From positions 24,877,248 to 24,941,247 of the forward strand of contig CAIIXF020000003.1 in NCBI GenBank assembly GCA_903813345.2: 64,000 nucleotides of DNA, in the 5' to 3' direction. This DNA is from Owenia fusiformis. Taxonomy: Eukaryota; Annelida; Polychaeta; Sabellida; Oweniidae. Of this stretch, positions 4,851-64,000 are shown in pieces; the first letter of the stretch is position 1; the number at the start of each line of letters is the position of its first letter. A model generated the notes under the pieces. It was not told the DNA's origin and ran no database searches. It saw only the letters and a list, made by a program, of their open reading frames with translations. The position numbers were made by a program, and so were the translations under genes.

Positions 4851-11126
<6,276 letters not shown>

Positions 11127-19338: not shown

Positions 19339-20684
19339 ATGATGCGACAGCGAATCTCCGTGTTCTTTATGTGTGCATCAATCCTAAATGTCAAGGCTGT
19401 GCCACCACGATGCACAAGAGCTGATATCAAGAAGCTGAATAGCACAGTAATTACCTCGAAGAGCGAACTAACAGAGGCATTTAATAGCAAATTACAAGTG
19501 ATCAAGAATGACATAAGATCCGAACTAGCCAATGAAATTGGCAATCTCTCCGACAAACTTACCAATGAAATAAACCAAAATGAAGAAAAACTGAAAATTG
19601 ATGTGAATATTGTGAATACTGAAGTGCTTAAAGTAAACAATAAACTGGACCAGATCAAAAATGACATCAAAAGAGAACTGAATGATGAAATCGATCAGCT
19701 GACTGGAAGTATTAATCAAAAATTCGATGATCTGAATAAGAAGCTGATTGAAGCATTCAACAGTACACTAGTTCAGATGAAGAATGATATCAAAGATGAA
19801 CTTACTACGGAAATCAATCAAAATGAAGACAAGCTGAATGCGGTGAAGACACAACTGACAAAAACAACTACTGAACTGAGTGATTGTGTATGTGAGAGAA
19901 AAAGACGTAAGTCCAGCGATTTGTTGTATACTCCATAATTTTGATTGACACATACTAATCTCAGTCATACAGAGTGGGCCAAAAAGTTTTAACCAAAACA
20001 AATGTTATAACTCCATCATTCAACATGTGTGTAATGTCATATTTGGCATATTTAAACCTTGTTCAATGGTTGCATGTTTTGCATCATGGCCATAAAATCG
20101 TTACTATTGGAAATAGAGCAATGGAACTTGGTTATATGAAAGAAAATTGAACCAGGTTTAACTTTTAGGTCGAATAAATTTGAAACCCATGCATGCTGGA
20201 TGTTTCAGTTAGGCATTTGTTTGGGTTACCTTTTTTGGCTCACTCTGTAGTTACATGTACTTAAAATGCCGCGTTACACGTGAAGTTAAGTCCGATAGGG
20301 TCCCTTTGAGTTTAGAAGCAATGTATAAAAGATGGACATATTTCTGTGTTGGCAATTAATCACAAATGTAACATGTACAATCATTATTTTACAGAGAGAA
20401 GTCTAATCTACTATGCTGGCCCTTACATCTATACATTTGCCGCTGCAAAGGCATACTGTAAAAGTAAGGGTCACAAGATAGCCACACCAGGCCAATTAGA
20501 CGCAGCGTTTGCATTAGGGATGGAGTCGTGTGCTTGGGGATGGGTTGAAGATGGAAGTCTTAGGTTTCCACAACAGATGCCATATACAAACAACAGGGGT
20601 GGAACACGTGGATTAAATACTGAGCTGAATTACAATCCATCAGCCAAATATGGAGTCTATTGTGCTACAAACCCAGGTCCATAA
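19339..20684 (+). CDS. Secreted coiled-coil/Link-domain protein, copy 1
   Basis: Coding exons 19339-19906 and 20395-20684 join in phase 1 (C|AG), giving ~285 aa. A noncoding exon 1 ends at 19003. The start is the first of two adjacent ATGs 21 nt inside exon 2. Residues 1-20 are a signal peptide (cleavage after VKA). Residues ~26-180 form a charged coiled coil of internal repeats (EAFNSKL, IKNDIK, NEINQNE). CERKRQRS marks a basic junction. The last exon is a Link module (YTFAAAKAYC, KGHKIATPGQL, CAWGWVEDGS, YGVYCATNPGP), the hyaluronan-binding fold of CD44 and TSG-6. The third Link cysteine is absent (NNRGG where copies 2 and 3 have NNWCG), leaving Cys2 unpaired. Extracellular role is inferred. 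Intron 1 lacks the MITE shared by copies 2-4, so this is the outgroup copy. Confidence 0.82.
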
Positions 20685-23076: not shown

Positions 23077-23257
23077 CAGTAAAACCTGTATATAGTGAAC
23101 ACCCGGAGCCACAAAAAGTGTTCACTGTAGGTAGGTGTTCACTACAGAGAGGGGATATTAGTATAAACTGGAGTCAGTGGAAAATGTGTCTTGAAATGGT
23201 GTTCACTAAACACAGGTGTTCACTTGAGAGAGGTGTTCAATAAGACAGGTTTAACTG
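23077..23257. mobile_element. Pogo/Tigger-like MITE in intron 1 of Link copy 2
   Basis: 181-bp element with ends cagtaaaacctgt and acaggtttaactg and inner repeats gtgttcact. The CAGTaAAACCTG terminus is of the pogo/Tigger type. Orthologous insertions lie at 41075-41255 and 44934-45099 but not in copy 1, so it predates the copy 2/3/4 duplications. Confidence 0.75.
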
Positions 23258-23477: not shown

Positions 23478-26400
23478 ATGATGCGACAGGTAATCTCCGT
23501 GTTCTTCATATGTGCAACAATCCTATATGCCAAGGCTGTGCCACCACGATGCACAAGAGCAGATATTAAGAAGCTAAATAGCACAGTAATTCACTCGAAG
23601 AGCGAACTAACTGAAGCATTCAATAGCAAATTACAAGTGATCAAGAATGACATAAAATCCGAACTAGCCAATGAAATTGGCAATCTCTCCGACAAACTTA
23701 CCAATGAAATTAACCAAAATGAAGAAAAACTGAAAATTGATGTGAATATTGTGAATGCTGAAGTGCTTAAAGTAAACAATAAACTGGACCAGATCAAAAA
23801 TGACATCAAAGGAGAACTGAATGATGAAATCGATCAGCTGACTGGAAGTATTAATCAAAAATTTGATGATCTGAATAAAAAGCTGATTGAAGCATTCAAC
23901 AGTACACTAGTTCAGATGAAGAGTGCCATTAAAACTGAACTTACAGTAGAAATCAATCAAAATGAAGATAAGCTGAATGGGCTGAAGACACAACTGACAA
24001 AAACAACTAATGAACTGAGTGATTGTGCATGTGAGAGGAAACGACGTAAGTCCACCGATTTGTTGTATACTCCATAATTTTGATTGACACATACTTATCT
24101 CAGTCATTATAACCAAAACAAATGTTAATAACTCCATCATTCAACATGTGTGTAATGTCATATTTGGCATATTTAAACCTTGTTCAATGGCAGTCTGGGA
24201 AACAAGCATTTTTTGTGCCTGGACAAATTTGTCGAGTCACTTTGAAACACTCCAGACAAATTCTTTTTTGAAATTTTGAAATTTTGAAAACACACTTGGC
24301 ATTTTTTTGTACTTGGTTAATGTAAAATAAAAATACATGGAAACAGAGGGGGGGGGGTATAAAATGATTCTTAACCATTGACTTTTATATTTTGCACTGT
24401 TTCATTTGTCGACAACTTCTTCCTCAGAAGAAGGCCAATTTATATTCTTTCATTTTGTGTAAAACAAAATTCATTGTCTCATGTCTCAGCAAAATCTATC
24501 TAGACAATTTTGACCACACAGTTTGAAACAGTCTGGACAAAGGAGCACGTAGGTTATCGCAAACAATTTCAAACGATTCTAACTTGAATTATGAATATTT
24601 TTTGATCATGAACATGGGTCTGATTAACTAAATTATCATTATATATACTTTTCTTGAAGATAACGAATGGATCTAAAAGATACAGGGTGTTCCAAAAGTA
24701 ACAGGACTGGTGCTGGCATTTTGTTAAATATGTACCAATCGTCTTCAAATTTTCACACAATGTACTTTCAAGTATTGCGACTAAAAATCTGAAGTTTGAA
24801 AAAAAATTATTGAACGCAGGTAGAGTTATGGTTGTCATGGTAACATGACATCACAATACCCGGGGCAACATTTGGCATGAAAGTGTGATAAAATTTGTCA
24901 ATTAATAAATAAAGTATCCAATCACTTACTACAATACAACTTTTTTTTGTATTTGTTTTTGTTGTTGTTATGTTGTAATATTGTTGCCATACAATTCAGA
25001 TTTAAGTGTTTATGATGTCATAATAATGATGTTTATTCAATTTTCTGGAATATCACCATCTATGACAGTCTGTACAATTCAGCAGAGTCTTTGGGTAAAT
25101 TCAGTCACTTCAGTCAAAATGAAGAGGCTGATAATGTCAAAGCAGGAGCAGAGAGCTGCAATTAAGTTCTGTGTGAATCTTAAAAAGACTGGGAAACAAA
25201 CAGTGGACATGCTTCAGGAGGCCTGTGAAGGAAATTGCATATCCAGGAGTAGGATATTTCAATGGCACAAGGAGTTCTCAAATGGCCAGTCAGATATCAA
25301 AGACAAACCTCGATCTGGACGTCCAAGAATTGCTTCAAGTGGAAACAACATCAAGCTTATCGACAACATTATTAAAGAAGATAGACGCTCTAGTATAAGG
25401 GACATCACACAGCAAACAGGATTATCAATTGGAACAGTCAGCAGAATCCTTAAGAGAAACCTCAAAGTTAGGAGTTTGGCAACACTTTGGGTTCCACACC
25501 AGCTCACCGAGGCCCAAAAAGCAAGGAGAGTGGAAGTGTCTGAACAATTTGTCCGAAGGTACGAAACTGAAGGTCGTCACTTCTTAGAAAGAATCATCAC
25601 TACTGATGAAACCTGGGTGTACTTTTTCACACAATATACAGCTCAACAAGCTTCTGGATGGTACCATGATGGGTCTCCATTGACAGAAACACCTCGGCTC
25701 TTTAACAACAAAGATAAGCGAATGCTTATCACTTTCTTGGACATTTGGGGAATGGTTCTGGTTCATCTTGTCCCAAAGGGCCAACATGTTGACTCCGACT
25801 ACTACATTCAAGTGAGTAGTTTGTAAGTAGTAAGTAAGTAGTAGTTTTCTGATATAATACTTGAATTTGATTGGAAAAAGTATTTCCTCTGTCATGGAAA
25901 AATCATTTGGATGACATTTAAATACTCCTCTGTTTCAGGTCCTCAAACGTCACTTAAAACGGGCCATTTCGAAGAAAAGACCGAATTTAAAGCCAATCCT
26001 TCACCTTGACAATGCCCCTGCACACAAATCAGCAAAGACTACTGCAGCTATAGATGAACTAGAACTTGAGATCTTAGACCATGCACCATATTCACCTGAT
26101 CATGCTATATCTGACTTTTATTTGTATGGAGAACTGAAAGCTAATCTGCGTGGCAGGACCTTTGTAAATGAGAACGACCTTCTCCAAGGAGTCCAATCGA
26201 CCTTGCGTGACATGGCATCAAATGGGTTCTCACACGTGTTTGAGTCATGGGTCCAGCGTCATTACACTTGCATTGACCAGAAAGGAGCCTACTTCTCGAA
26301 GTAGAGGATATATAAGGATATCTATGATGCAATACTAATGTTATTCTACTTATTGTTGCATTTTCACTTGGACATATAAAATGCTAAAAGTCTCTGTAAG

Positions 26401-41074: not shown

Positions 41075-41255
41075 CAGTAAAACCTGAATATAGTGAACAC
41101 CTGTAGCCACAAAAAGTGTTCACTGTAGGTAGGTGTTCACTACAGAGAGGGGATATTAGTATAAACTGGAGTCAGTGGAAAATGTGTCTTGAAATGGTGT
41201 TAACTAAACACAGGTGTTCACTAGAGAAAGGTGTTCAATAAGACAGGTTTAACTG
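41075..41255. mobile_element. Pogo/Tigger-like MITE in intron 1 of Link copy 3
   Basis: Orthologous to the insertion at 23077-23257 (same ends, same position relative to the exons). Confidence 0.75.
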
Positions 41256-44933: not shown

Positions 44934-45099
44934 TGTATATAGTGAACACCTGGAGCCACAAAAAGTGTTCACTGTAGGTAGGTGTTCAATACAGAGAGGG
45001 GATATTAAACTGGAGTCAGTGGAAAATGTGTCTTGAAATGGTGTTCACTGAACACAGGTGTCCACTAGAGAGAGGTGTTCACTAATACAGGTTTAACTG
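44934..45099. mobile_element. Pogo/Tigger-like MITE in intron 1 of Link copy 4
   Basis: Third orthologous copy of the 23077-23257 insertion, slightly shorter because of an internal deletion (gatattaaactgg). Confidence 0.75.
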
Positions 45100-48200: not shown

Positions 48201-51200
48201 TTAATCTCCAAGCTTCAATTTGGCAAAGTCTGTCACAATTTTGATTGCATCGTTCAAACAGGAAGTGTTTGTTCCAGTAGCTTGAGCAGAGACATCTTTC
48301 CCGCCACCCTTTCCATTCATTAGTTTAGAAACCTGGTTGACCCATTCATTGGCCTTGAGACCTTTGTTGACTGCTTCCTGGAAACAAAATAAAATATTTT
48401 ACAATGAAATACTTGGAATATGCAAGTAAGTACATACATTTCAAACTGTATTCAGTAGCCCTATATGTACAATGAGAATTCACATTTGAATGAATCTTGA
48501 GACACTGTCTATTTTAGGCAGACAATTTTGATAGCACATGGTATTCTTAAATAGGGAATTTGGGAGATGTGAATCATGTTTATTCATCTTTATACCAACG
48601 TTCCGGCTTTTTCATTAAGAGGGTTAATTTGTTGATCATCTAACAATTTTGCTGAAAAATTAAGTTAGTGTTTGTTTAGAGGTTGAAAATCCAACAAGTT
48701 AGTTGCTGAATGCTTCTAAACTTGAAATCTGTGGGATGTTTTGAATATGGTGGAATCGGACGGTTATTAAAGTTAACAATGCAGAGCTCAAACCATCATT
48801 GGCAATCGCAGTTATTTAAGTTTGGAAAATTTGTTTGGTTCAGTTTTTTAACAGAACTTTACTGAGGGAAAATTACTGTTCATAAATCGACACTCGCTAA
48901 AATAACACAGATCAAAAATTTTTAAACCTTCTGACCCCTAGTTTTGAGCTAATTAGAATAGTCCTACATTATAAATGTATTCATTGAGGACTTCAAATAC
49001 TAAAATGGTGATAGCATACCTTAGGGACACAACTCATACATAAAATTTTGCCAGCATCTTCATCCACAGAGAAGAAAATTGCAGAGGTCTCTGGTGAAAG
49101 ACTTTTGTACTGTTTCATTGCACCATCTAGGGCCTGAAATATCAAACAACAGTTTGAGCCAAATATAAGGAATATTAACATTTTTTATCAAATAATTTCA
49201 TGAAGAATCAGATTCCCCTCCAAAACATGTGAAACCTATCCTAACACTGTTTAATATGTTTTTTTCTGTCAGTAATTTTTCAAAAACATTGATATTTGAT
49301 CTGCTGTTAAAATATGATTTTGGTTTGTTTCCAATTCAGGAAGCATTGACAATTAATTAATTCAATTTACCAAGGCATATGGAGAGGCCAAGGAGCATTT
49401 GATACAACTGAACTGGAGATTCATTATTTTACCAAGTCAATCTGAAATCATTATTGTGTACTACCCCCAGCGAGATAACTAAAGCCAGTTAGTTTTTAAT
49501 TTGGGCCAGCTTATTCTTCCAGCATGTATAGAAAAACTGGTCCAAAATTCAACTTTGATAATAAGTCAATTTAAAATCCTTATATATTTGACAGATCACT
49601 CAAATCCAATATTGCATACCTTTGCATTTGAGAGAGCCTTAAACTCATGGATGACAATTCTCTGGTTAGGACTTGTTTCTATCATCTTCTTTGCTTCCTC
49701 CACTACCTGTACAAAATAAATTACAATTGCATCAGTATTTGTGTTATGCTATATTAGTGCAGGCCTGTAGCCAGGGGGGGTCGCAGGGTTCGGGCGAAAA
49801 TTCTTTCAAAATTATGCAGTTTTTCACCAGTTTTTGAACACTTCTCAAGTGATTTTAGCCATATTTGGATCAAAATTGTCAAATGTGAACCTCCCCTGGA
49901 AATTTTGAAAACTGAACCCCCCTTGGCAAATCCTGGCTACGGGCCTCAATCTTGACCCATTTTTGGTGAATGAAAGAAACGATTAGGGTATACTGGATAG
50001 TTTTATGATATCATACTTTGCTATGTTTATCATATCATCATACTTTCCAGGCTGTGATGTTTGTTCACAAAATTGTAAATACATGTATGTATGCATATCG
50101 CACAAGTGCCAAAGGGAAATGATAAACAATTGCTACAGAACACAGCAAGATAAAGACCCCAGAAGTTATCGTAATAAGGTAGTCCTACTACAAGTTTGGC
50201 TAGAGAATGTACTATACAGTCCAGTTTGTGACATAAAGTGGAAACTGGATAACTTATTAGCTACTACTGAGGTAAAATTTTCTATAATTGCTCTATCTGA
50301 GACTTGGCTTAATGCATCAAATCAAAACCAGTTTAACTTACCTAACTACTCATCAGAATTTAATTCTAGAATAGATAAAAGAGGGGGTGGTGTCTGTATA
50401 AATGTTCACAACTCCTTGCAGTATATTACACGCAATGACCTTAGGGTTGATAATCTAGAGTGTGAATCAGTAGCTATTGAATTAATCAGTCAAAACTCAA
50501 AAAATATCATTATTACTGTCATATATAAGCCACCTGGTGTTGATGTGTCACATTTTAATAGTGACTTGGGTGATTATATGAATAAAATAGCAGATGAGGG
50601 TAAATTATCTTACATCATGGGTGACTTCAACATTGATTTACTTAAGGTTGAATCTCATGAACCCACACATGATTTTCTGAACCAGTTTTATTCATTCAAC
50701 CATGTCCCACTAATATATAGGCCAACAAGAATTACTGACAAGACTGCAACTCTTATAGATAATATTTTTACTAATGTCCCTAATATTGATGGATGTGGTA
50801 TCATCATGGAGGACATTTCTGATCACTTTCCAATCTATTCCATTTCACATTATGATACTACCAAATCTAAAAAAACATTAAGCAGTTATCGTAATTTCAA
50901 TGACTCTAATAAGCAATTATTTCTTGAGAAACTCTCAAATGTCGACTGGACCCCTTGTTATAAAAGTCAAGATGTAAACATGGCATTTAATATCTTCATT
51001 AACTTGTTAATGGAACAATATGATTCTTCATTTCCACTCAAATCCAAATTTATCAAGGTTAATCATGATCCTAATAGACCCTGGTTGACTTCTGGCATCT
51101 TAACTTCTGCCAAAACTAAAAATAAGCTATATACCAAATATTTGAAAAATCCCTGTTGCAAAACAGGAAAAGCTTACAAGTCCTTCAACCATAAACTTAA

Positions 51201-54200
51201 GCACATAATTAAATACTCAAAACGTACACATTATCAAAATAAGTTTGCCGAAGTAAGTGGTAACATTAAAAAGTCTTGGTCTATCATTAATGAACTACTT
51301 GGAAAAAACAAAAAAGCTGCATTGCCATCTAAATTTACTATAAATGGAAAGGAAACAACAGATCATGAAATCATTTCCAATGGATTTAATAATTTTTTTA
51401 CCAATATTGGTAAAAATCTAGCCAAGGAGATTCCAAAATCCAAAAAATGCTTTAATGAATACCTAGCAAGAGCTCAAAAAGTTCAATCATCTATTTATCT
51501 CAAAAAGACCTCAAAAACTGAGCTTGAATTAGAAATGTGTCTTCTAAAATCTTCCTCGCCTGGACCTGATGGGATTCTACCATCACTTATTAAGTCTGCA
51601 AGACAGTTTTTAATTGATCCACTCTTGTATATATTTAACTTATCTTTTAAATCTGGTATTTTCCCAGACGCCCTCAAATTGGCCAAAGTAACACCTGTAT
51701 TTAAAAAAGGTGTCACTACAAATCCTTCGAACTATAGACCAATTTCAGTTTTATCTGTATTTTCTAAATTGTTAGAAAAGCTCATGCACGCCAAACTCAC
51801 TGGTTTTTTAGAACGTTTTGAAATTATTTTTACTTATCAATTTGGATTTCAGAAATTCAACTCTACCTACATGGCCATTTTATATTTCATTGAACAAATT
51901 CGAAAATCAACTGATTTGGGGAAAACGAGCATTGGCATAACATTAGATTTTTCCAAGGCCTTTGACACAATTAATCATGACATTTTGATACAAAAACTTG
52001 AATATTATGGCATCAGAGGAATAGCTAAGTCCTGGTTTGAAAGTTATTTAAAAGACCGCAAACAATATGTCACCATTAACAATTATGAATCTAAACAATC
52101 ATCTCTAAATTGTGGTGTTCCGCAGGGCTCGGTACTTGGACCACTATTATTTATTCTTTACATAAATGATCTGCCTTTTGTTGCCCCTAATCTAAAATTT
52201 ATTATGTTTGCTGATGACACCAATCTTCTTGATAGTGATTATGATTTAAATGAACTCATGACTAGAACTAATGCAAACTTGAATTCAATAGATGACTGGA
52301 TAAAAGCAAACAAACTTTCACTTAATATTGGCAAAACCAATGCTATTCTATTTGGACCCAAAAAAAATCAAACAAATCTGAATCTTAAAATACGCAATGA
52401 GAACATAAATTTCCGGGAAAAAATTGACTTTCTTGGAATTATTATTGATAAAAACTTGAAATTTAAAGAACACATAAAATCTGTTGAAACAAAGATTTCT
52501 CGCGTCATTGGTTCTCTTTATCACATTAAACATCTACTTCAAATAGACAGTTTCAAAACAATTTACTACTCATTGATACACTCTCAATTAAATTATTGCA
52601 ACATAATCTGGGGTAACACATTTAAATCATTTTATGATCGCCTACATAAACTGCAGAAACAATTCTTAAGGCTAGCTTTAAATAAGGATAGACTTTCTCA
52701 CTCCGCTCCCCTATTTAAAGATCTTAGAATATTAAATATTTTTGATGTCAACAGATATTGTACTGGTCAGTTCATGTACAAAATCTTTAATAAGCACCCC
52801 AGTCTTCCAAAAAATCTATTTCAAGACTTGTTTGATATCAACATTAATATTCATCATCATTACACAAGACAATTGCATCATTTTCATATCCCTAAATGCT
52901 CTAAACTTTCCCTTCGCTATCTGGGTCCTAATCTTTGGAATGCTCTACCACATGATATTAAAAAGTGCTCCACTCTAAATATTTTCAAATCTTCATATAA
53001 AAAACTACTCATCTATCGATAATGTATAAACCAATATCATACTATACTGTTGATTTTATACTGGTACCCGATTTTTGTAACATTTTTACATTGTACATCC
53101 TTAGATTAATTGTTAATACCATTTTTATATACCTACATGTAACATAATATAAGTGTTTTCTTTTATATGTAGTCTAGTTGTCATTCTAATGATTTCTGTT
53201 AAACCGCAACATATACCCACTAGGGTGTCTAGCGGCTTGTTTTTATAGTGTATATTATATAAGAATTATGAAATAAATAATTGAATTGAAAAAAAAAAAA
53301 ATTGAATTGAAGCACACATCAAGTGCATTTTATCATCAAGTGCTTAGTGCTACTGACCTCTGTCATGACTGCTGCTTTTCTGGCCTTGTCAACATCATCA
53401 AGCTTTTTCTTCAGCATTTTCAGTTTATTTCTCAGGTCATCTCTCCTCCAGTATGCAATTCCAGCCTGGGAGATCTCCTAAAATAGAGTTTGGGCTCAGT
53501 AAGTTAAGAGAATGGGGAGAAGTTGTTTCAGAACTGCATAGGAGGAGCCTCTCTCTCTCTTTATATAGGGAACATTGCATATACCAATGCTTTCTGGTAG
53601 GGCTACCCATGGGAAAGATCCTTGAATACAATCAAGTATAACACACTTGTTCCATTTTCAGACACATTTTTAAGACATTCTGAGTAAGAAAGTATGTGTA
53701 GTGCAGTAGAACAAAATTTGTGCTTTCTGGATATCAACGTAGGCAATTTTGTATTATTTGAATGTTTTACATTTCATGATGAAATCTAATTAATTTTACA
53801 AAATTCTTTTAATCTTTTTCATTGTTTCTGTATTAATTGACAAAATAAACATAAAGCCAGGAACTGGAGCAAATATGTGACACCAAGATGCTCAATGAAC
53901 AGTATTCAAAGTTGAAAAATGTACTGTGAGTGAAAATGAGTTGAATCTAATTACCTCTGTTAGATCTACAATATCTTTTGTAAACATCTTTGGTGAAAAT
54001 CCAGCAGATTTTGAGTCTTCCTCTATCTTGGCTTTCAGATTTTCACACTGCTGGTCAAGAATGTCTGCTTTCTTTATGGCCTGTATTGAAACAATGTGAT
54101 ATTATAAATATAATCCTTACATTCCAATATTATTAAATGATTTGAAGTGCAATACAGGGTATATTGCACTTGAGAAATTCTGTATTGGCACGAGACTAAG

Positions 54201-55404
54201 TCAAGAAATACAGAAAATCGAGAGGACAATATATTCTGTATTGCAATTAAATCATTCAATAACATTTTTATCGTGTGACTCTAGGCCAATACATTTGACT
54301 TACATGTAGGAGATAATCCCTGGGAAATATTCTGACTTGCTCTAAAACCATTAATTCAATGTAGATATTATTTCATGAATGAAATCTGTATTGCTACTGA
54401 GATTGTCCCCTCCGTACCAATATTTTCTGCATTGCTAGGGAGATGAACAATCACGTACGTGTCCTTTACAGGTCTCTCACAAAAGCGTCACATTATGTAA
54501 TTGGCCACAAAAAACAGTTTCTATATCGATGAAATTAACGTTTAGGTCAGGCTTAATAGTATGGCAGAACATAGAAAAAGTGACTGATTTTGTTATCAAT
54601 TATTTTCAATTGGATTATATTATATTGGGTTGCTTTTCTAATTTGAGAAATTATGGATTCAATATGCCCCATACAAGATGAATCATCTTTTTGTATCCAT
54701 TTAATATTAATTATCTGAATTGTGTTTTGTATTGAAATGTTGCCTTTAGTGTAGGTTCGTAATAGGTTGATAGATTAACATTTCAAACGAACCCATTTAG
54801 ACCCACCTTGGCAGCATCATTTCCAGTAACTGCAACAATCCTGCGAATTCCCTTAGCAATGGCTTCTTCAGTAACTATCACAAAATCACCTATATGTCCA
54901 GCTCGCTTCAGATGACTACAAACGGAAATAGCATACATGTACATGTGTATCCTAAACATTGAGTATTGCTTATGAGTTAGTATTCAAGCCCAAATGAAAT
55001 GATTTATTAAAGATTAGAGTTGGAAGGTGGGGGGGGGGGGGGGGGGGTGAGAGCAGACATTTTACTCAGTCTATGTTTATGACTTTTAAGAACATGAATT
55101 GCTTTTTAATTCAAAATGTGAACAGTTGTTTTGTGGGTTCCATATTAGGCATTATTGTCAATATGTAGAAACTGTATCTATAAACAAACAAATGAGTTGC
55201 ATGAAATAGGCAGTATAGGATACATGTTCTGCCATAAGAAAGATCTAAGTGCATTAACGAAATGAGACATTTGAAAAGAAAGTGCACTTACGTTCCTCCG
55301 CAGAATTCAATGGAAGTTTTGATACCAGCAGGACTGTTGGGATCTGCCACCAAGTCCTCAATTGGCAGTCCTATAGACACCACACGTACAGGGTCAGGAT
55401 ACAC
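48201..55404 (-). CDS. AARS1: Cytosolic alanyl-tRNA synthetase, C-terminal exons
   Basis: Seven minus-strand exons with GT-AG borders and consistent phases: 55292-55404, 54807-54915, 53955-54080, 53358-53477, 49620-49706, 49020-49133, 48201-48377 (stop at 48201-48203). They encode the last ~285 residues, beginning [12 protein letters not shown]. Next come [19 protein letters not shown] and [16 protein letters not shown] (end of the editing domain, with its zinc-type C..H site). A coiled linker follows, and the C-Ala domain ends [14 protein letters not shown]...LKLGD. This matches animal AARS1 almost motif by motif. The enzyme charges tRNA-Ala and clears mischarged Ser/Gly. The aminoacylation domain lies to the right of the window or beyond the large intron starting at 55405. 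The intron at 49707-53357 carries an antisense LINE. The acceptor of the 55404 exon is tandemly amplified. Confidence 0.96.
49760..49946. mobile_element. MITE, family 'aggccYgtagccagg', copy 2
   Basis: 187-bp sequence with termini aggcctgtagccagg and cctggctacgggcct, same family as 9630-9836. The interior also shares a poly-G stretch next to the left end and catttttgg/tggcaaa-like words. It lies in an AARS1 intron. Confidence 0.75.
50005..53022 (+). CDS. LINE polyprotein: endonuclease and reverse transcriptase
   Basis: Open frame of 1005 codons. Recognisable LINE protein starts near residue 76 (WKLDNLLA...); earlier residues are probably read-through of flanking DNA, and the first beta-strand of the endonuclease is missing. 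Endonuclease motifs: [27 protein letters not shown] motifs: [67 protein letters not shown]. The order and wording fit the L2/CR1 group of the Jockey superfamily; the exact clade is uncertain. No stop interrupts the frame. No gag-like ORF1 precedes it. The copy is antisense to AARS1. Confidence 0.9.
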   Translation: MISYFAMFIISSYFPGCDVCSQNCKYMYVCISHKCQREMINNCYRTQQDKDPRSYRNKVVLLQVWLENVLYSPVCDIKWKLDNLLATTEVKFSIIALSETWLNASNQNQFNLPNYSSEFNSRIDKRGGGVCINVHNSLQYITRNDLRVDNLECESVAIELISQNSKNIIITVIYKPPGVDVSHFNSDLGDYMNKIADEGKLSYIMGDFNIDLLKVESHEPTHDFLNQFYSFNHVPLIYRPTRITDKTATLIDNIFTNVPNIDGCGIIMEDISDHFPIYSISHYDTTKSKKTLSSYRNFNDSNKQLFLEKLSNVDWTPCYKSQDVNMAFNIFINLLMEQYDSSFPLKSKFIKVNHDPNRPWLTSGILTSAKTKNKLYTKYLKNPCCKTGKAYKSFNHKLKHIIKYSKRTHYQNKFAEVSGNIKKSWSIINELLGKNKKAALPSKFTINGKETTDHEIISNGFNNFFTNIGKNLAKEIPKSKKCFNEYLARAQKVQSSIYLKKTSKTELELEMCLLKSSSPGPDGILPSLIKSARQFLIDPLLYIFNLSFKSGIFPDALKLAKVTPVFKKGVTTNPSNYRPISVLSVFSKLLEKLMHAKLTGFLERFEIIFTYQFGFQKFNSTYMAILYFIEQIRKSTDLGKTSIGITLDFSKAFDTINHDILIQKLEYYGIRGIAKSWFESYLKDRKQYVTINNYESKQSSLNCGVPQGSVLGPLLFILYINDLPFVAPNLKFIMFADDTNLLDSDYDLNELMTRTNANLNSIDDWIKANKLSLNIGKTNAILFGPKKNQTNLNLKIRNENINFREKIDFLGIIIDKNLKFKEHIKSVETKISRVIGSLYHIKHLLQIDSFKTIYYSLIHSQLNYCNIIWGNTFKSFYDRLHKLQKQFLRLALNKDRLSHSAPLFKDLRILNIFDVNRYCTGQFMYKIFNKHPSLPKNLFQDLFDININIHHHYTRQLHHFHIPKCSKLSLRYLGPNLWNALPHDIKKCSTLNIFKSSYKKLLIYR
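50230..53310 (+). mobile_element. 5'-truncated LINE in an AARS1 intron
   Basis: Includes the ORF2 body, a ~260-bp 3' UTR, and a tail aaataaataattgaattg followed by an A-run and attgaattga (53268-53310), a microsatellite-like end as in L2-type LINEs. The left boundary is placed where LINE similarity starts. No target duplication could be confirmed by eye. Confidence 0.8.
54113..54470. repeat. Hairpin family member in an AARS1 intron
   Basis: atttgaagtgcaatacaggg (54138) pairs with tattctgtattgcaattaaat (to ~54254). A second module, tctgtattgctactgagatt, follows at 54387. Both modules match the pair at 21013-21270. Confidence 0.65.
55029..55047. repeat. Poly-G run
   Basis: A tract of about 19 G interrupted once or not at all, in the AARS1 intron between 54916 and 55291. 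It is a likely site of length error in sequencing and could form a G-quadruplex. Confidence 0.85.
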
Positions 55405-55616
55405 CTGAAAAAGTCACAATTATATTACAAGCACCACACGTACAGGGTCAGGATACACCTGAAAATGGCAAAATTGTATTACAAGCACCACAAGTACAGG
55501 GTCGGGATACACCTGAAAATGGCACATTTATATTACAAGCACCACACGTACAGGGTCAGGGTACACCTGAAAATGGCACAATTATATTACAAGCACCACA
55601 CGTACAGGGTCAGGAT
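55378..55616. repeat. 54-bp tandem array copying an AARS1 splice acceptor
   Basis: Units start at 55378, 55432, 55486, 55540 and 55594 (last one cut at ~23 bp). Each full unit contains, on the minus strand, a pyrimidine-rich tract, TTTTCAG, then the first 27 nt of the exon (GTGTATCCTGACC...). Only the unit at 55378 leads into the real exon. Three further complete acceptors lie upstream in gene sense at 55458/55459, 55512/55513 and 55566/55567. Because 54 is divisible by 3, a repetitive open frame appears on the plus strand; it is an artefact. Confidence 0.93.
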
Positions 55617-55639
55617 TAGGGTGGTCCAAAATATGGCGA

Positions 55640-56043
55640 AAAACCAACTTTGTTTCAGATCATCTTCCTCATTTCACTTACTGTTGTCCATGACCTAAAA
55701 CACCTGCACACCAAATTTTAAGACCCAAATCACATGGGAAATTTACCCACGCTTTGACTGAAAATTCGGTTATTTCATGATTTTTTGCTATTTTCGATAA
55801 ATTGTCATCTCCCTTTTCCTGGTATAATATGTTTCTATTTTTTCATAATAAACATTTTGTAGGACTCTTTATTACTTCATAATACTAGGAACCCATACAC
55901 CAAATGTTGAGACCCAAATCCCATGGGAAATTTACCCACGCTTCGACTGAAAAATTCGGTTATTTCATGATTTTTTGCTATTTTCGATAAATTGCCATCT
56001 CCATTTTCCTGGTATAAATGGTAGATGTCTTTTCATAATAAAT
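55640..56043. repeat. ~185-bp satellite, left part
   Basis: Units marked by gacccaaatcacatgggaaa (55724) and gacccaaatcccatgggaaa (55911), 187 bp apart. The array continues at 62930-63440 (markers 62986, 63172, 63354). The Ngaro-type element at 56044-62929 is inserted within it. Confidence 0.85.
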
Positions 56044-56821
56044 ATTTATGTTCATGTAGAGTATTGATATGGCCGTGAGAGTCGTACATGTAAAATTATT
56101 AATATAAAATTAATATAAATAAATATTGAGCCAATTAACACAAAACACAATACCTTGGAAAATAATGGCTAATTTAAGTTAATTAGCTACAAGAGTTTAC
56201 AATTTGACATAACTGTTAATTAGCTCAATTGGATATATTATAATACCATCTCCAACTCATCTTCTTGGGCGAAAATAAATCTCCAACTGGTGGTGTTAAG
56301 CTGGGGAAGGAGGTGAGGGAAAAGAATCGAAATGTATAACTTACATTGATGTTAATGGATTTTGTACGCACCTAGGGAGAAAACCCTCCAACTACAATCC
56401 TATCGATATTTCGTCTGAAGTCTCATCTCGTACTCTCGAGATCTGAAGCTTGATGTTTCGTTCAGTGTAACTTACCAGAAACATTTACCTGGGATAACCG
56501 GGGAATGGTCTTCTCAGGGCTTGTTCATACCTAAACCTTAACCGACTCTCACATTGCCATAAATGAAATTATTGTCAATAATTTGAATTTATGTTCATGT
56601 AGAGTATTGATATGGCCGTGAGAGTCGTACATGTAAAATTATTAATATAAAATTAATATAAATAAATATTGAGCCAATTAACACAAAACACAATACCTTG
56701 GAAAATAATGGCTAATTTAAGTTAATTAGCTACAAGAGTTTACAATTTGACATAACTGTTAATTAGCTCAATTGGATATATTATAATACCATCTCCAACT
56801 CATCTTCTTGGGCGAAAATAA
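56044..56821 (-). repeat. Split direct repeat block B1-A2-B2
   Basis: B2 56044-56278, A2 56325-56590, B1 56587-56821. B1 and B2 begin on the plus strand atttatgttcatgtagag and end cgaaaataa. A2 matches A1 at 62664-62929. The 46-bp spacer between A2 and B2 (56279-56324) is present only here. Confidence 0.92.
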
Positions 56822-57269
56822 GGCCATGCGCGATCTCTCGCGAGAGCCCAAAAGAAAAGAAGATTAATTAGAAAATAGTTAAATCATTTATTGATACACA
56901 AATCAATACATGAATACCAAAATATAAGAACATCATAGAAATGAACTAAAGTAAATCCGCAGATTCTGAAATATGGATGGACAAATTAATGTAATGTAAT
57001 GTAATGTAATATGCTGTCAATCTCAGGTAAGATAAAGGAATTAGAATTGAATGAAAATTTTTGAATTCAGAAAGTGCGGGTTTATCTCAATTAAATTTCT
57101 AGTACATCATGAAGAAAAAACAGTAGCTACTTGAAATTTGCATGCTCGACACCTGTCTGAGCCACTTTGGGGTTTACAAGAAAATTGAATACTCGACACC
57201 TGTCTGAGCAACTTTGGGGCTTTAATGAAAATTGCATACTCAACACCAGTCTGAGTTTAAAAAAAAAGT

Positions 57270-58142
57270 CTACCTAATATAAATTTTTAATGTATGTATG
57301 TATGTCATCTCCCAATCTTTTTTGATAGTATAGTCATCAAGTCCAAGATTTGTGGCCCATGTGGCTCCGCCTATCTGCAAACTGTGGCATTTATAGAAGG
57401 TAGGATCTACCTGACATTGAACAAAGAGTTTGTGAAGAAAATTGTTAAATACAGAAGTCTTCACTGGAGCATCTCTATAAATGAAAAGAAGACCTGATGT
57501 TTAAGGACCTTATGTTCAGGTACAACTTCATATGTAATACTGGACAACAAGATGGTAATTGAGGATTAATTGATATCGTAGCAGGAGATGAGCTATGTTT
57601 AAAATGTGAAAAAGTAATAATGAAAAGGCTTCATCGGGAGAGAATTTAATACTTTCTAACTGTAAGTTATGTCCTGCGGAAGTACTTGTCAACTCACTAC
57701 TTCTAGTAAGCCAAAAAGGCTGTAGATAACATAGCTCTGTACAAGACTTGAGCAAAAGGGTCAAAATCTACATCAGAAGTTTTAGAAATCGTTTGTTCTA
57801 ACAAAGCTGTGTTGATTGGCAATCTAGTGTCTATGCTAGGATTTTTTTTTTTACAAAAAACCGGAAACTATTTGAGAGACTACATAAGAAGTAGTGGGAT
57901 CCTTGAAATTGTTAAATGTGAAAATATGGTAGATATGATATACCAGACAGAATTGACTTGAATGAATTAGAGGCATAATTCTTTAAACGAAGATGTGCTG
58001 CAAAAAGGCTAGCAGAGGCTGGGGTTAGAGGAAATTCACCTATACCTGTCCGGGAGTTGAACTGTACTAATAAATCATATGACTTTCTGGTAGACGGGGC
58101 TTGGGCAGCTTGAAATGCTTCTAAAAAGATAGAAAGTAACAT
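57270..58142 (-). pseudogene. Tyrosine recombinase of the Ngaro-type element, broken
   Basis: 58142-57912 encodes the SAM-like N-terminal domain (QAPSTRKSYDLLVQF, LTPASASLFAAHLRLKNYA, SILSGISYL). 57464-57270 encodes the catalytic end, where the usual HSxRxG reads HSLQIGGA, so the second catalytic arginine is Gln. It continues AGLDD-like GLDDYTIKK and ends YIHTLKIYIR near the nucleophile region. The parts are separated by stops and frame changes. The enzyme would integrate the circular cDNA; this copy cannot. Confidence 0.8.
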
Positions 58143-58229
58143 AAATTGTTTCTAGAAAAACCGTCAGCAGCAGAATTATGAATACCAGCAATGTGTTCAC
58201 TTTGAACATGATATTGTTTGAGAGACATT

Positions 58230-59000
58230 TTAATATATAGGAAGTAAGAGTTGCATGGACGTTTGATTGCTGGTAGAAAATTTATTTCGGTATGTTCACT
58301 ACTGCTTCATTGTCAGAATGCAGGATAACTGTGTGTCCAGACATAAAATTTTGCCTATGTAAGTATAGCAGTAACAATAGGATATAATTCAAGAATATTG
58401 ATGTCCAATTCTTTCCATTCTGATGGCCATTCCCCTTTAAACCAAAGATTATTGCAAACGGCTCAATAGCCTATCGTAGTAGAAGCATCGGTAAATAGAT
58501 GCAATTGTTCTCTTGTCTCTTGTTCTTCTGTAAGGAAAATAGGTTTCCCATTAAAGTGAATTAGAAACTCTTTCCACATTAATAAATCCTGGATAGATGG
58601 AGTGTTGATAAGATTTTATAATGTAGCTCCTTCATTTTTAGATAGATGAATAAATATTGAAATAAATGATCTACCGAAAGGAATCACACAACAACAGTAG
58701 CTAAGGAATCCTATAGCAGATAAAGTTCTCTTTTTTGAGACTTTCTTTGGTTTTGGCTTAATGGTGAAGGGGTTGATGTTACATAAAGTGTCAATGATTG
58801 TTTTGCCATTTCCATGGGCAAACGAGCTTCTAATAGTCTTACACAAGAAGCAACCTTTTCCTAAATGTTTTATAATATCTATGGCTTGTTGTACGGTTGC
58901 ATATTTAACTGTAGAAGTTTCGTCTGGGATAGTATCATTATGGATTGGCCTCTGGGATGTGATAAGTTGTGAATAACACACAATTCACCTGGAGATTTTT
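58230..59000 (-). pseudogene. RT and RNase H remnants of the Ngaro-type element
   Basis: 58981-58616 shows DIRS-type RT words: NDTIPDETSTVKYATVQQA, IIKHLGKGCFLCKT, SAIGFLSYCC, VIPFGRSFI. The palm segment with the YxDD box, expected between CKT and the later part, is not visible, so an internal deletion is likely. 58570-58240 carries RNase H (LFTDASTTIGY, WFKGEWPSEWKELDIN, LELYPIV, SDNEAVVN) with in-frame stops after TIGY and in place of a Trp codon after AILT. Nonfunctional. Confidence 0.82.
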
Positions 59001-59089
59001 TAGGAAAGAGAAATAAGGGTGAAATAACATAATATCAAATGGTGGCTGGTCAAAAGGTCTAAGTATTCTACCAGCTTTAAGCTCTTTGT

Positions 59090-59456
59090 TTAATTTTTTG
59101 AGAGCTTCTGGGTTCTTAGATATGATGACAAATTATCATGAGTAATGTTGTAATGTTCTGGCAAATCAGAGTGAGGAAATTTTAAATCCATACTAGAAAC
59201 CCTGAACTGTTTCTTCTTGATGTTCATAGCCTTCAAGCCAATATCTGAGTCTTTCAGGTTTAACTGGAGTAACAACTTGTGTTGACAAAAGTTCACTCGA
59301 AGGGTTTTTTGGAGTCTCCAGTACCTGAGCGCTTTTTGTTGGGGAATTGGGCTTGCCTGCCGTTGTTGCGGGAGTAACATTTGACATGTTTGTTTGTTTG
59401 GAACGATTGCAAGTTGGGCAGGTGTGGTTAAAGGGACAAGGGGATATATATTTCAA
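59090..59456 (-). pseudogene. N-terminal RT/gag-linked segment of the Ngaro-type element
   Basis: Two overlapping frames carry one ancestral protein: CPFNHTCPTCNRS (a short zinc-knuckle-like segment), then VTPVKPERLRYWLEGY, then in the other frame DLKFPHSDLPEHYN and LSSYLRTQKL. This matches the region that precedes RT in DIRS-order polyproteins. The frame change lies near 59200. Confidence 0.65.
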
Positions 59457-59959
59457 GAGGTGAGGGGTTTGATCATGAAATCTTTGGGTATAGACAGCAA
59501 TAAATATACTGAATTCTCGGACCCATTCTGGAAATGAAAGGATTTTTTTGAAGGGATTAAATTCAAATGTTTTGATTCAAAAGAATTGTCAGATTACATC
59601 TCACAGAGGACATAATCAATGTTTTTGTCTTCTTCAATACAATCATGAATCAATACATGAATACCAAAAATATAAGAACATCATAGAAATGAATTAAAGT
59701 AAATCCGCAAAATCTGGAATATGGACAAATTAATGTAATGTAATATGTTGAAAAAATGGGAATTGGATTCATAGAAGCTACTGACACCTGTCCTTGTAGC
59801 ATGGCATTTGTGTTGGGAATTAATCCATAAGCTGTAGAGACGGGTTGCGAATTATGAAAAGCTGAAAGGTTAGCAGAGACTGGAGGGATGAAAGGGTAGG
59901 GTTGGATATTAGCGCTTGATGCAAAAGATGGAATAGGGCGAGTAATAGATGCTGTGGGT

Positions 59960-60157
59960 CTATTTAGAGAGAATGAAATGTTGGGTTGGAATGGAAGATG
60001 TAGTGGAATAAGAAGGGAAAGGGGATAAGGGAAAAGTTGTTGTAAAGTTGCCTCTTATTAAAGTGGGCATAGACTTGGCTGCAGTCAGGGTATTAGAAGT
60101 GTGATACTCTTCTATAGTAATACTTAGGCTAGGATCAGATCCTTCAGTTTCAGACAT
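59960..60157 (-). pseudogene. Possible gag start of the Ngaro-type element
   Basis: A 65-codon minus-strand frame (MSETEGSDPSLSI..., rich in Ser/Thr/Pro) sits where the structural ORF should begin. No domain is recognisable; the assignment rests on position only. Confidence 0.4.
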
Positions 60158-60254
60158 CTGGAATGAAATAAGTAGTATTTATATAGAGGGTAAGCAACTT
60201 CAAGACATAATAACATTTTTAGATAAATATAAATAGAAGCACATGCTCCATGTT

Positions 60255-60865
60255 AGATGTATAAATATGATGCCCACAAGGCTAATCATAATAAATATGA
60301 TTTAGAATACACTGCATAAATAAATGCATATGATATATTAAGATTATGAATTATCATAATATAAATATGATGCCCATAAGGCTAATCATAATAAATATGA
60401 TTTAGAATACACTGCATAAATAAATGCATAAGATATATAAAGATTATGAATTATCATAATATAAATATGATGCCCATAAGGCTAATCATAATAAATATGA
60501 TTTAGAATACGCTGCATAAATAAATGCAAATGATATATAAAAATTAAATTTTATCATAATATAAATATGATAACCTTTAAGAATAAAGGTAAAGAATACA
60601 ATGCATTAATAAATGCATATGATATATAAAATAATATGAATTATCATAATATAAATATGATAACCTTTAAGAATAAAGGTAAAGTATACAATGCATGAAT
60701 AAATGCATATGATATATAAAATAATATGAATTTATCATAATATAAATATGATAACATATCAAGTCTAAAGATATAGTATACACTGCATGAATAAATGCAG
60801 ATGATATACAAAATAATATATATTTATCATAATATAAATATGATAACATATAAGTAAACAGGAAA
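60255..60865. repeat. ~100-bp AT-rich tandem repeat inside the Ngaro-type element
   Basis: Six to seven units with marker ataatataaatatgat and tgcataaataaatgcatatg (starts near 60259, 60359, 60459, 60558, 60658, 60740, 60830). It lies between the hydrolase remnant and the possible gag, in the 5' part of the element. Confidence 0.88.
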
Positions 60866-61069
60866 CTAAATTTCCTAATATAAGTATAGTACTTATGAAG
60901 GATAACTAAGTGAATAAACTATTGTGAATAGTTAACGACTCTCTGGCTTATGTTTGGTTAGAGAAGAGTAGCCGTCTCTTCTAATGTTAAGTCTAATTAT
61001 TATTACCTAATAAATGTAATCAAGAAATCTCAGGACTGCGCCTTTCCAGGACTTGACGAAACGCTTTTC

Positions 61070-61529
61070 CCCTTTGCATTGAGATGTATGGGATCGTAGG
61101 AGTCATCTATCAAATTTGACCATTGATTTTATATTGGGTGGTATGTGGGTGATGGAGGAAGAAAAGTCTATTGCCCTTATGAGATGAATATCATTTAACA
61201 ATTTGAAATTGGTAGATAAAAATTTTTGAATTATATTGAATGCATTCTGAAACAGTATTGATCGAGGATTTGAAAGGATGCCATGAGCATTGAAATAGTT
61301 CTCCAATATAAAAGGCTTTTAATGAAGGATGTATATCTAAATATTGTTCAGTCAAAGTGATGAGATTTTCTGCAACAAAGGTAGATGATCTATGAACCAG
61401 ATCAATTTCTCCTAGCTGTAATATAGCCATATCTGGGTAGGGATTTTTATATTTTACATCATCTTGAAATTGTTTAATTGTATATACAATGGTGGTATTA
61501 TAGTTAACTATGTCTTCCTTTCCGAACAA
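61070..61529 (-). pseudogene. SGNH-hydrolase-like domain of the Ngaro-type element
   Basis: Two overlapping minus-strand frames (61529-61191 and 61306-61103) encode pieces of a GDSL/SGNH fold. One reads NPYPDMAILQLGEIDLVHRS, where block III GxND has become GEID. Near 61085 the plus-strand complement encodes DPIHLNAKGK, the block V D-x-x-H site. Hydrolase ORFs of this type are known from some Ngaro elements. Here it lies 5' of the possible gag. It is frameshifted and lacks the block III Asn, so inactive. Confidence 0.68.
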
Positions 61530-62663
61530 AAATGTGGCCTATAATGTTGACCCTAATATCATTAGGCATCTCTAATAGTCTTGTATAATGGGAGAAGAAA
61601 GGTAAGGATATTTTGACTCCTGTCTTATCCTCAGAGTAAAGTTTATTATGTGCAATAAGGTGTCAGAAATATAGAAGAAAAGGAATAATATAGCTCTCTC
61701 AAGAGATAAATATATATCAAGTAATGAAATGATATCTGTACCTTCATGGTACTATGAATAATCCCAATAACAACCAGAAATCTCTGGAATGGGATAATAA
61801 ATAGAATAGATATATTTATTTAATAGCCTACAGGTTACTTACACTCGTAAATAAATGAAATATCTATCATTAGATTGGATGGAGTCTATTGAACGTACAT
61901 GTAACTTGAGGACATGTATGTGACTTACTTCGGTCCAAAGCCTTCTCTATATTCCGGCTTTGAGTAGAAAGATTAGCTGCCTTGGTATTGTAAATATTGT
62001 AAATCAAGGTGCCACACGCACAGTGAATACGGCATAATAATATGAAAAATACCTTTATGTATAGATTTGAGAAACATCAGCACACATCTCCGTCTGAATC
62101 TATTGTTATATTTGATTTCTTAAGCGAGAATAATTTCAAAGTTTCCTACATTATTAGCGTCTGGAACCGGAAGCCATTTTTTAGCTACAGCGAGAAAATT
62201 TTACCATGTGTCAAACTCCGAAAAGAAATTTTGAAATATCTAAATCCAGACAAGCAACACTCATCCTAAATATAATTAAAATTCTTAAATATTTATAAAA
62301 TTATCAAAAATGATTTCTAGGTGCGTGTAGCAATTTATACATACGAAATACGAGTACATACGAAATCAATGAAGTTACATCTAGCTGTAAGGTAGAGACT
62401 CGAGTAATATGTGACGCGTCCATATTCGTCAATAAATTAATTCTTTTGTATAAATTCAAGTTTTAAACCATATGTACGAGATGTCAATTGAATATTTCAA
62501 ACATAAAACTACAAAGTCATAAAGACAAAAGATAAAACGTGTTTGAAATTTTTTTGAACATTTTTAAACTGACGTTTTTTGTGTGAAATATTACGATAAA
62601 ATTTTCACAAAACGATTCAGCGATAGATAAATGTATATACAAGAGATAAATGTCGATAAAAAT

Positions 62664-62929
62664 AATCGAAATGTATAACTTACATTGATGTTAATGGATT
62701 TTGTACGCACCTAGGGAGAAAACCCTCCAACTACAATCCTATCGATATTTCGTCTGAAGTCTCATCTCGTACTCTCGAGATCTGAAGCTTGATGTTTCGT
62801 TCAGTGTAACTTACCAGAAACATTTACCTGGGATAACCGGGGAATGGTCTTCTCAGGGCTTGTTCATACCTAAACCTTAACCGACTCTCACATTGCCATA
62901 AATGAAATTATTGTCAATAATTTGAATTT
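62664..62929 (-). repeat. Split direct repeat A1
   Basis: 266 bp with no visible difference from A2 (56325-56590). It marks the 5' end of the element in minus orientation. The outer base composition aaattcaaattattg (element strand) equals the A2 start that abuts B1. Confidence 0.92.
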
Positions 62930-63440
62930 TTGAATGACTCTTTATTACTTCATAATACTTAGGAACCCATACATCAAATTTTGAGACCCAAATCCCATGG
63001 GAAATTTACCCACGCTTCTCCTGAAAAATTGGGTTATTTCATATACAATACAATACATCTCTATTTTCCTGGTATTATATGTTTCTATTTTTTATAATAA
63101 ATATTTTGGGAGGACTCTTTATTACTTCATAATACGAGGCACCCATGCCCCAAATATGCACCAAATTTTGAGACCCTGGCCCCATGAGAAATTAATTCAT
63201 GCTTCAACCAAAAATTTGTGATTTTCTGCGAATTTTCTCCTATTTTCAATAGGTCAACATTAATCTTATAGTTAGTTTTTAAACATTTTAGGAGGACATT
63301 AATACGTTCTTAATACTAGGAACCCATACATTTAATATGTACCAAATGTTTAGACCTGAACCCCATGGGAAATTCACGTTTGCTTTGATCATATACTTTT
63401 GATTTTTGTCGTTTAGAGCACCATATCATTGTTGTGTGAT
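62930..63440. repeat. ~185-bp satellite, right part
   Basis: Continuation of the 55640-56043 array, with units diverging progressively rightward (markers gacccaaatcccatgggaaa 62986; gaccctggccccatgagaaa 63172; gacctgaaccccatgggaaa 63354). Confidence 0.8.
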
Positions 63441-64000
63441 GTGCAATTTGTAATAAATTGTATTACACGTTGTCTTAATTATCCTGTTTGGCCTTACATA
63501 CGTTACAATCGTGAAAGATGGTTATATAGTACTTTAAGGTAATTCGTTATTTTCAGTTTTAATGGCTTCCTAATTGGAGCCCCGTGTTTTTTCAGGAACA
63601 CATAACTCATTCCATTCAGATGCACAAACAGTGTATAAGTATAGCACATAGTACATTATAGAAAATTACTAACCATCAACTAATAATCTAAATACATATT
63701 TGAACTCAGTGTAAAATTGAAAGAGCTGACCAAGTATGGAATGAGTTCCAGAAATAACATTGTACTCCACTTAAAATTTCTGAACATACAGAATTACCTT
63801 AAGTGTTTCTCATTGCTCTTCCTATCTTCTACATTGTGTACTTTCAGGGCATGAACATTTTCAGAGAAATGACAAAGCTCAGTGGAAGCTCGAATCCCTT
63901 GAAGATTTGGTACAGGCTTACTGGTTACAACAGAGACCATGCCATTGATACATTGATCAATCAAAAAATCATTTCTCCAAAGAAAATCAGATTTGATATT
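63441..64000. other. Right edge, unassigned open segment
   Basis: From ~63790 to the edge all of the following stay open: a minus-strand frame (…STELCHFSENVHALKV… up to a donor-like AAG|GTAATT at ~63797) and a plus-strand frame after a strong acceptor-like tract ending tactttcag (63849). The minus frame does not match the AARS1 segment expected upstream of YPDPVRVV. I cannot decide the strand or the product. Confidence 0.3.

Follow-up and report, generated by a model that had tools for sequence, protein, structure and literature searches.

Minisatellites that lie over intron-exon boundaries have been described in amphioxus under the name of 'mirages', in Adh3 and in the globin genes BflGb6 and BflGb9 (PMC3087553), and PGBD5 and troponin C were added to them (PMC3902484). 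In the amphioxus mirages AG/GT is found in many but not all of the units, the copy number varies between two haplotypes, and in BflGb6 the boundaries of the cluster are excluded from homogenisation (PMC3087553). The Adh3 data, together with RT-PCR of the globins, suggest that splicing is normal despite the mirages (PMC3087553). Within the literature examined, only the amphioxus work uses this name for boundary minisatellites, which does not rule out other cases; the 'Mirage' of PMC7960049 is the name of a transposon. Related events are also in print. In potato RdRp, a tandem duplication across an intron-exon boundary made a new intron (PMC4974935), the duplication of AGGT as a model of intron gain is treated in PMC3443670 and PMC2891723, and a minisatellite in human IFI6 (6-16) supplies multiple splice donor sites (cited in PMC4526556).

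Here we describe a tandem array that extends over a splice acceptor of AARS1. The boundary-repeat architecture is already in print, and the AARS1 array is a well-formed example of it in an essential gene. It lies at 55378-55616 on the minus strand of the window, by which we mean the whole stretch of 64,000 nucleotides that was analyzed, and was called by TRF with a period of 54, 4.4 copies and a score of 422 (Table 1); in a control, TRF returned no more than 2 rows for any of 20 shuffles of the window that preserved dinucleotides, with 69 as the best score. The 54 bp unit is composed of 27 nt of the intron end (CTTGTAATATAATTGTGCCATTTTCAG in copy 4) and the first 27 nt of AARS1 exon A (GTGTATCCTGACCCTGTACGTGTGGTG in copies 1 and 2), and there are four full units at 55378-55593 plus an exonic partial. 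The authentic boundary, as set by homology and splice signals, is itself one of the tandem copies: copy 1 continues directly into the remainder of the open exon A, and copies 2-4 lie upstream of it in the intron. A sequence-only reading had proposed a 54-bp unit over the acceptor and the initial 27 nt of an exon of AARS1, present four times plus a partial, and both TRF and the read-out of the copies confirm this array. Its account of the acceptors is mended here to four, one real (copy 1) and three decoys (copies 2-4), with a partial that is 23 nt of exon and has no acceptor. CAG followed directly by GT is kept in 3/3 of the full extra copies and is absent from the partial.

Pairwise, copies 1-4 differ at 3 to 5 of the 54 positions, with a mean of 7.4%, and the array is therefore not an exact assembly duplicate. 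The variable columns number five in the intron half and three in the exon half. Copy 1, which forms the edge of the array, has two private differences in its intron half, just upstream of the CAG, where copies 2-4 share the other state; this pattern would be compatible with array edges that are excluded from homogenisation, as in the amphioxus array.

Table 1. Positions in the window of the AARS1 array, the exons of its gene and the companion zinc-finger array.
Feature	Positions	Strand	Description
AARS1 exon A	55292..55404	-	Open; encodes ...EFCGGT, its last two bases being the first two of a Thr codon; lies at the downstream end of the array
AARS1 exons B-G	48204..54915	-	Open; end ...KLKLGD-stop; exon starts 54915, 54080, 53477, 49706, 49133, 48377
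Array copy 1	55378..55431	-	gtgactttttcag, the real intron end, then exon A up to its nt 27; holds the real acceptor (exon start 55404)
Array copy 2	55432..55485	-	Decoy acceptor, 55458 = first base after CAG; CAA replaces TAA in the intron half
Array copy 3	55486..55539	-	Decoy acceptor, 55512 = first base after CAG
Array copy 4	55540..55593	-	Decoy acceptor, 55566 = first base after CAG
Partial copy	55594..55616	-	23 nt, exon-like, identical to 55378-55400, without acceptor; upstream edge of the array
Companion array	5938..6871	-	Covers the acceptor of a C2H2 zinc-finger exon that starts at 5953; 17 copies of CAG followed by a GATCCATACTGG-like sequence, including the real one

The comparison with amphioxus is close. 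As in the BflGb6 mirage, the copies hold the 3' end of the intron together with the 5' part of the exon; the 54 bp unit is within the 10-72 bp of the Adh3 mirage (PMC3087553), and AG/GT is retained in many of the extra units, as in the amphioxus mirages (PMC3087553, PMC3902484). Unlike the amphioxus mirages, the gene here is AARS1 and the sequence of the unit is different. The organism is probably not amphioxus either, since the G+C content of the window is 29-39% per 2-kb step and that of amphioxus is higher. In potato RdRp the boundary is also crossed by the duplication, which reuses the parental acceptor, tract and branch site; yet potato has one duplication, for which RNA-Seq proved a new intron from a cryptic donor (PMC4974935), whereas the AARS1 array has several copies and a new intron there is a prediction from sequence. 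Each of the AARS1 units carries AG followed by GT, as in the Rogers/Hellsten model of intron gain by tandem duplication. As in IFI6, the units of a minisatellite double as splice sites, but these are acceptors in AARS1 and donors in IFI6, where downstream units serve as donors in alternative mRNAs (PMC4526556). As for the array in animal relatives, no relative's gene was found, the AlaRS loci that were fetched being those of prokaryotes, and an exact-match scan of viral contigs gave nothing.

Joined together, exons A and B have a match to Pfam tRNA_SAD (E 4.8e-15), and exon A alone has no Pfam match and no PDB match. The joined C-terminal exons match PDB chain 5t5s, 'Alanine--tRNA ligase, cytoplasmic' (E 1.4e-57), over query residues 69-282, i.e., from the end of exon B onward and not in exon A. 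Against NCBIfam alaS the joined exons give E 7.5e-28 and 97.2 bits, below the cut-off of 457.05, for a query that is the C-terminal third only. A bacterial AlaRS profile, made from 40 of 72 long proteins (from 80 loci), matches the single exons A (E 3.9e-14), B (1.5e-11) and G (6.4e-15), is weak on F (0.0077), D (0.073) and E (4.2), and missed C. Between exons D and E, an open frame of 1011 aa on the plus strand (49987-53022) has endonuclease and reverse transcriptase domains in Pfam; it is a LINE-type element in the AARS1 intron, antisense to the gene. The long AARS1 intron upstream of exon A also contains a 235-bp direct repeat (56044-56278 and 56587-56821; 100% identical, 543 bp from start to start) that appears either to have arisen by duplication very recently or to form the ends of a young element. 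A repeat of ~190 bp occurs at 55708-56047 and at 62928-63388, with two or more copies per place that are 67-89% alike, and one of these pairs sits just upstream of the array. At 57273-60054, on the minus strand of the same intron, fragments resemble by eye a DIRS-like element in its RNase H and tyrosine-recombinase regions; Pfam scans of eight of them gave nothing significant.

All three AARS1 decoys are predicted to run into an in-frame stop. The sequence-only reading, in which decoy use gives GTG GTG CTT GTA ATA TAA and stops, holds directly for the decoys at 55458 and 55566. The one at 55512 reads 30 codons before it stops, since the TAA is replaced by CAA in copy 2. Acceptor strength was taken as the pyrimidine count at -20 to -4, a crude measure that uses no trained matrix. 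The real site has 11 of 17 and the decoys of copies 2, 3 and 4 have 12, 10 and 11, all inside the range of the other six mapped AARS1 acceptors (10-13), and by this measure the decoys would equal the real acceptor. CTGAC, which fits the branch-point-like motif YTNAY and belongs to the exon half of the upstream unit, is located 44 nt before the real acceptor and before the decoys of copies 3 and 4; at this distance it is absent for the decoy of copy 2.

The companion array, in the gene that the sequence-only reading called ZFP64-like, is confirmed too and has the same layout over the acceptor of an exon that matches Pfam zf-H2C2_2 (E 1.2e-15). TRF calls it at 6025-6871, and its start in Table 1 is an extension to the real exon copy. 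The 17 copies, which were counted with up to 3 mismatches in 15, have first bases between 5955 and 6833, one of them being the real exon border at 5953. AG is kept in 14 of the 16 extra copies, and the other dinucleotides of the 15-base motif in 13 to 16, with the first, CA, in 11. The -3 C (13/16) and the -2 A (14/16) are among the least conserved positions; this may reflect a slight decay of the decoys or chance alone, and nothing is drawn from it. The AARS1 array has no match elsewhere in the window at E 1e-3, the zinc-finger array included, which upholds the earlier claim of one layout in two unrelated sequences. Further repeats are present in the window. A 20-bp unit (ATCCTATTCAAGAATGGTGC) makes up a 1.5-kb array of ~78 copies at 631-2188; two stretches that are open on the plus strand, of 99 and 159 codons, lie within the array or overlap it. 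The plus strand also has four related genes, or parts of genes, each made up of a coiled-coil-like exon with MMRQ near its start (19339, 23478, 41476, and 45313) and an Xlink-domain exon (near 20412, 27642, 42549, and 46603; Pfam Xlink E 2.6e-19 for the one Xlink exon tested). Three of the four MMRQ starts are preceded, at ~220-280 bp, by a 17-bp minisatellite (GGTGTTCACTAAACACA-like; 23198-23243, 41196-41254 and 45040-45092). Two transposase-like frames at 24909-26304 (plus strand) are mariner-like by eye; in Pfam, HTH_29 is above its cut-off, and Transposase_1 and DDE_3 are below theirs.

The AARS1 array is very probably a boundary-spanning minisatellite of the amphioxus mirage type, with extra copies that are intronic and nearly neutral for splicing. 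This explanation is supported by the real exon A, which is open and conserved, and by exons B-G, which are open to the expected C-terminus. It is also supported by the same architecture in the amphioxus mirages, which are said not to interfere with splicing, and by chance overlap, which suffices for the number of such arrays in the window. Beyond the observed layout, copy sequences and stop codons, we infer how the array was born and how it is spliced. A 54-bp segment, the last 27 nt of the intron with the first 27 nt of exon A, would have been multiplied by replication slippage or unequal exchange. The copy nearest to the exon body would remain the working acceptor, with the other three and the 23-nt remnant now part of the intron. 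Under exon definition the real acceptor is probably favoured, being the closest to the exon body and its donor, and the decoys would be used seldom or never.

Several points count against this explanation. By pyrimidine count the decoys do not appear weaker than the real acceptor, and all three retain CAG despite the 7.4% divergence between copies. No upstream exon of AARS1 was found in the window, so the donor that would partner these acceptors is not seen there. In addition, the 23-nt partial does not resemble what one simple tandem duplication would leave. It seems too long for chance microhomology, so the array may once have been longer and then been cut, or may have been seeded by a separate small templated insertion. 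The rest of the partial, which a cut by a mobile element would be expected to leave, was not found elsewhere in the window (the best outside match has 9 mismatches in 31). At the upstream flank, 55617-55707 occurs only once in the window at E 1e-3, so that no element end could be placed there. Searches for RNA families (at gathering scores) and for tRNAs found none.

That 64 kb should hold two arrays with one layout raises the question of whether arrays are preferentially placed over acceptors in this genome by a targeted process, e.g., R-loops or splicing-linked breaks. Several amphioxus genes are alike in this respect (PMC3087553, PMC3902484), and the recurrent process proposed in the sequence-only reading is plausible on this ground. 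However, the window itself shows no enrichment of arrays over acceptors. TRF arrays, 29 in number, cover about 9% of it, and an incomplete list of 12 acceptors was mapped by homology or paralogy (seven in AARS1, one zinc finger, and four Xlink). With the zinc-finger array extended, arrays hold 2 of the 12, where rotation predicts 1.12 (P = 0.30), or 0.97 if only the 11 longest arrays are used (P = 0.24). The end points of TRF itself give a count of 1 of 12 (mean 1.10, P 0.67), and a slack of 75 nt gives 3 of 12 (mean 1.90, P 0.28). Random placement of the arrays covers at least 2 acceptors in 27% of cases. The rotation test was made after the arrays had been noticed and can only say that the window shows no enrichment, and we consider a targeted process unlikely. 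A different concern is that this AARS1 is a truncated copy that lacks its 5' two thirds, in which case the acceptors would have no partner donor. The bacterial AlaRS profile and one motif gave no credible exon for the first two thirds of AlaRS in the window, and the only two profile matches before model position 676 (E 2.8 and 5) are elsewhere in it. An exon upstream of the array is thus beyond position 64000, missed, or non-existent. Yet exons A-G are open and finish at the expected C-terminus, and the window simply stops at 64000. The DNA between (55620-64000) carries several repeats, as expected of a long intron, and short upstream exons could be overlooked by a profile that failed to find exon C and matched D, E and F only weakly. 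We regard a truncated gene as quite improbable.

Other possibilities give the decoys a role in splicing. If they were used at a meaningful rate, their in-frame stops could send transcripts to nonsense-mediated decay and tune the level of AARS1. The stop after each of the three decoys, their pyrimidine content equal to that of the real site and their conserved CAG would fit such a poison array. Yet AT-rich intron sequence is expected to contain stops by chance, four copies make too small a sample to reveal selection for or against decoys, and the amphioxus papers report undisturbed splicing (PMC3087553, PMC3902484). The shared regulatory effect once suggested for the two arrays finds no support in the window, where the tracts of decoys and real site are similar (10-12 of 17 pyrimidines), and we judge regulation by poison decoys extremely unlikely. 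The GT that follows each CAG allows another view. In all four copies CAG is followed, in phase, by GTGTAT or GTGTAC, and this acceptor-donor pair in each unit may be the most interesting property of the array. The duplicated AGGT gives GT...AG between the copies: as verified in the sequence, the segments from the decoys to the real acceptor start with GT, end with AG and are 54, 108 or 162 nt long. A transcript spliced at a decoy could in principle be spliced again to the exact normal mRNA by removal of such a segment. Any choice of acceptor would then be correctable in a second step that leads to the same mRNA, and the array would erase itself. Such a scheme would amount to the AGGT tandem-duplication route to new introns or to a form of recursive splicing, and it is compatible with a minisatellite origin. 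The pairing of the U1 5' end with CAGGUGUAU/C (-6.7 kcal/mol) is within the range of five mapped AARS1 donors, those of exons A, B, C, E and F (-5.2, -9.4, -6.7, -5.7 and -5.7 kcal/mol); the donor candidate of exon D, with -0.1 kcal/mol, was probably placed wrongly. Published precedents are intron gain by AGGT duplication (PMC3443670, PMC2891723) and the potato duplication across a boundary (PMC4974935). Against this, the zinc-finger array has AG followed by GA and is incapable of this route. The donor consensus is GTRAGT, from which positions +4 to +6 depart, and 54 nt is very short for an intron. Both the self-erasing array and the correction of any acceptor choice by a second splicing step are, in our opinion, very doubtful. 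If true, arrays of this kind in essential genes would buffer themselves; this would account for their persistence there, and they would be a constant reservoir for new introns.

As a minisatellite of the mirage type, the AARS1 array may extend the mirages beyond amphioxus to another animal group. The finding of two arrays in 64 kb, one of them in an essential enzyme, suggests without proving it that they may be common outside lancelets. Minisatellites that span a boundary offer a natural experiment on the choice that the spliceosome makes among near-identical neighbouring acceptors, and it is documented that new introns can arise by tandem duplication (PMC3443670). The boundary repeat in AARS1 is probably harmless and may be raw material for new introns.
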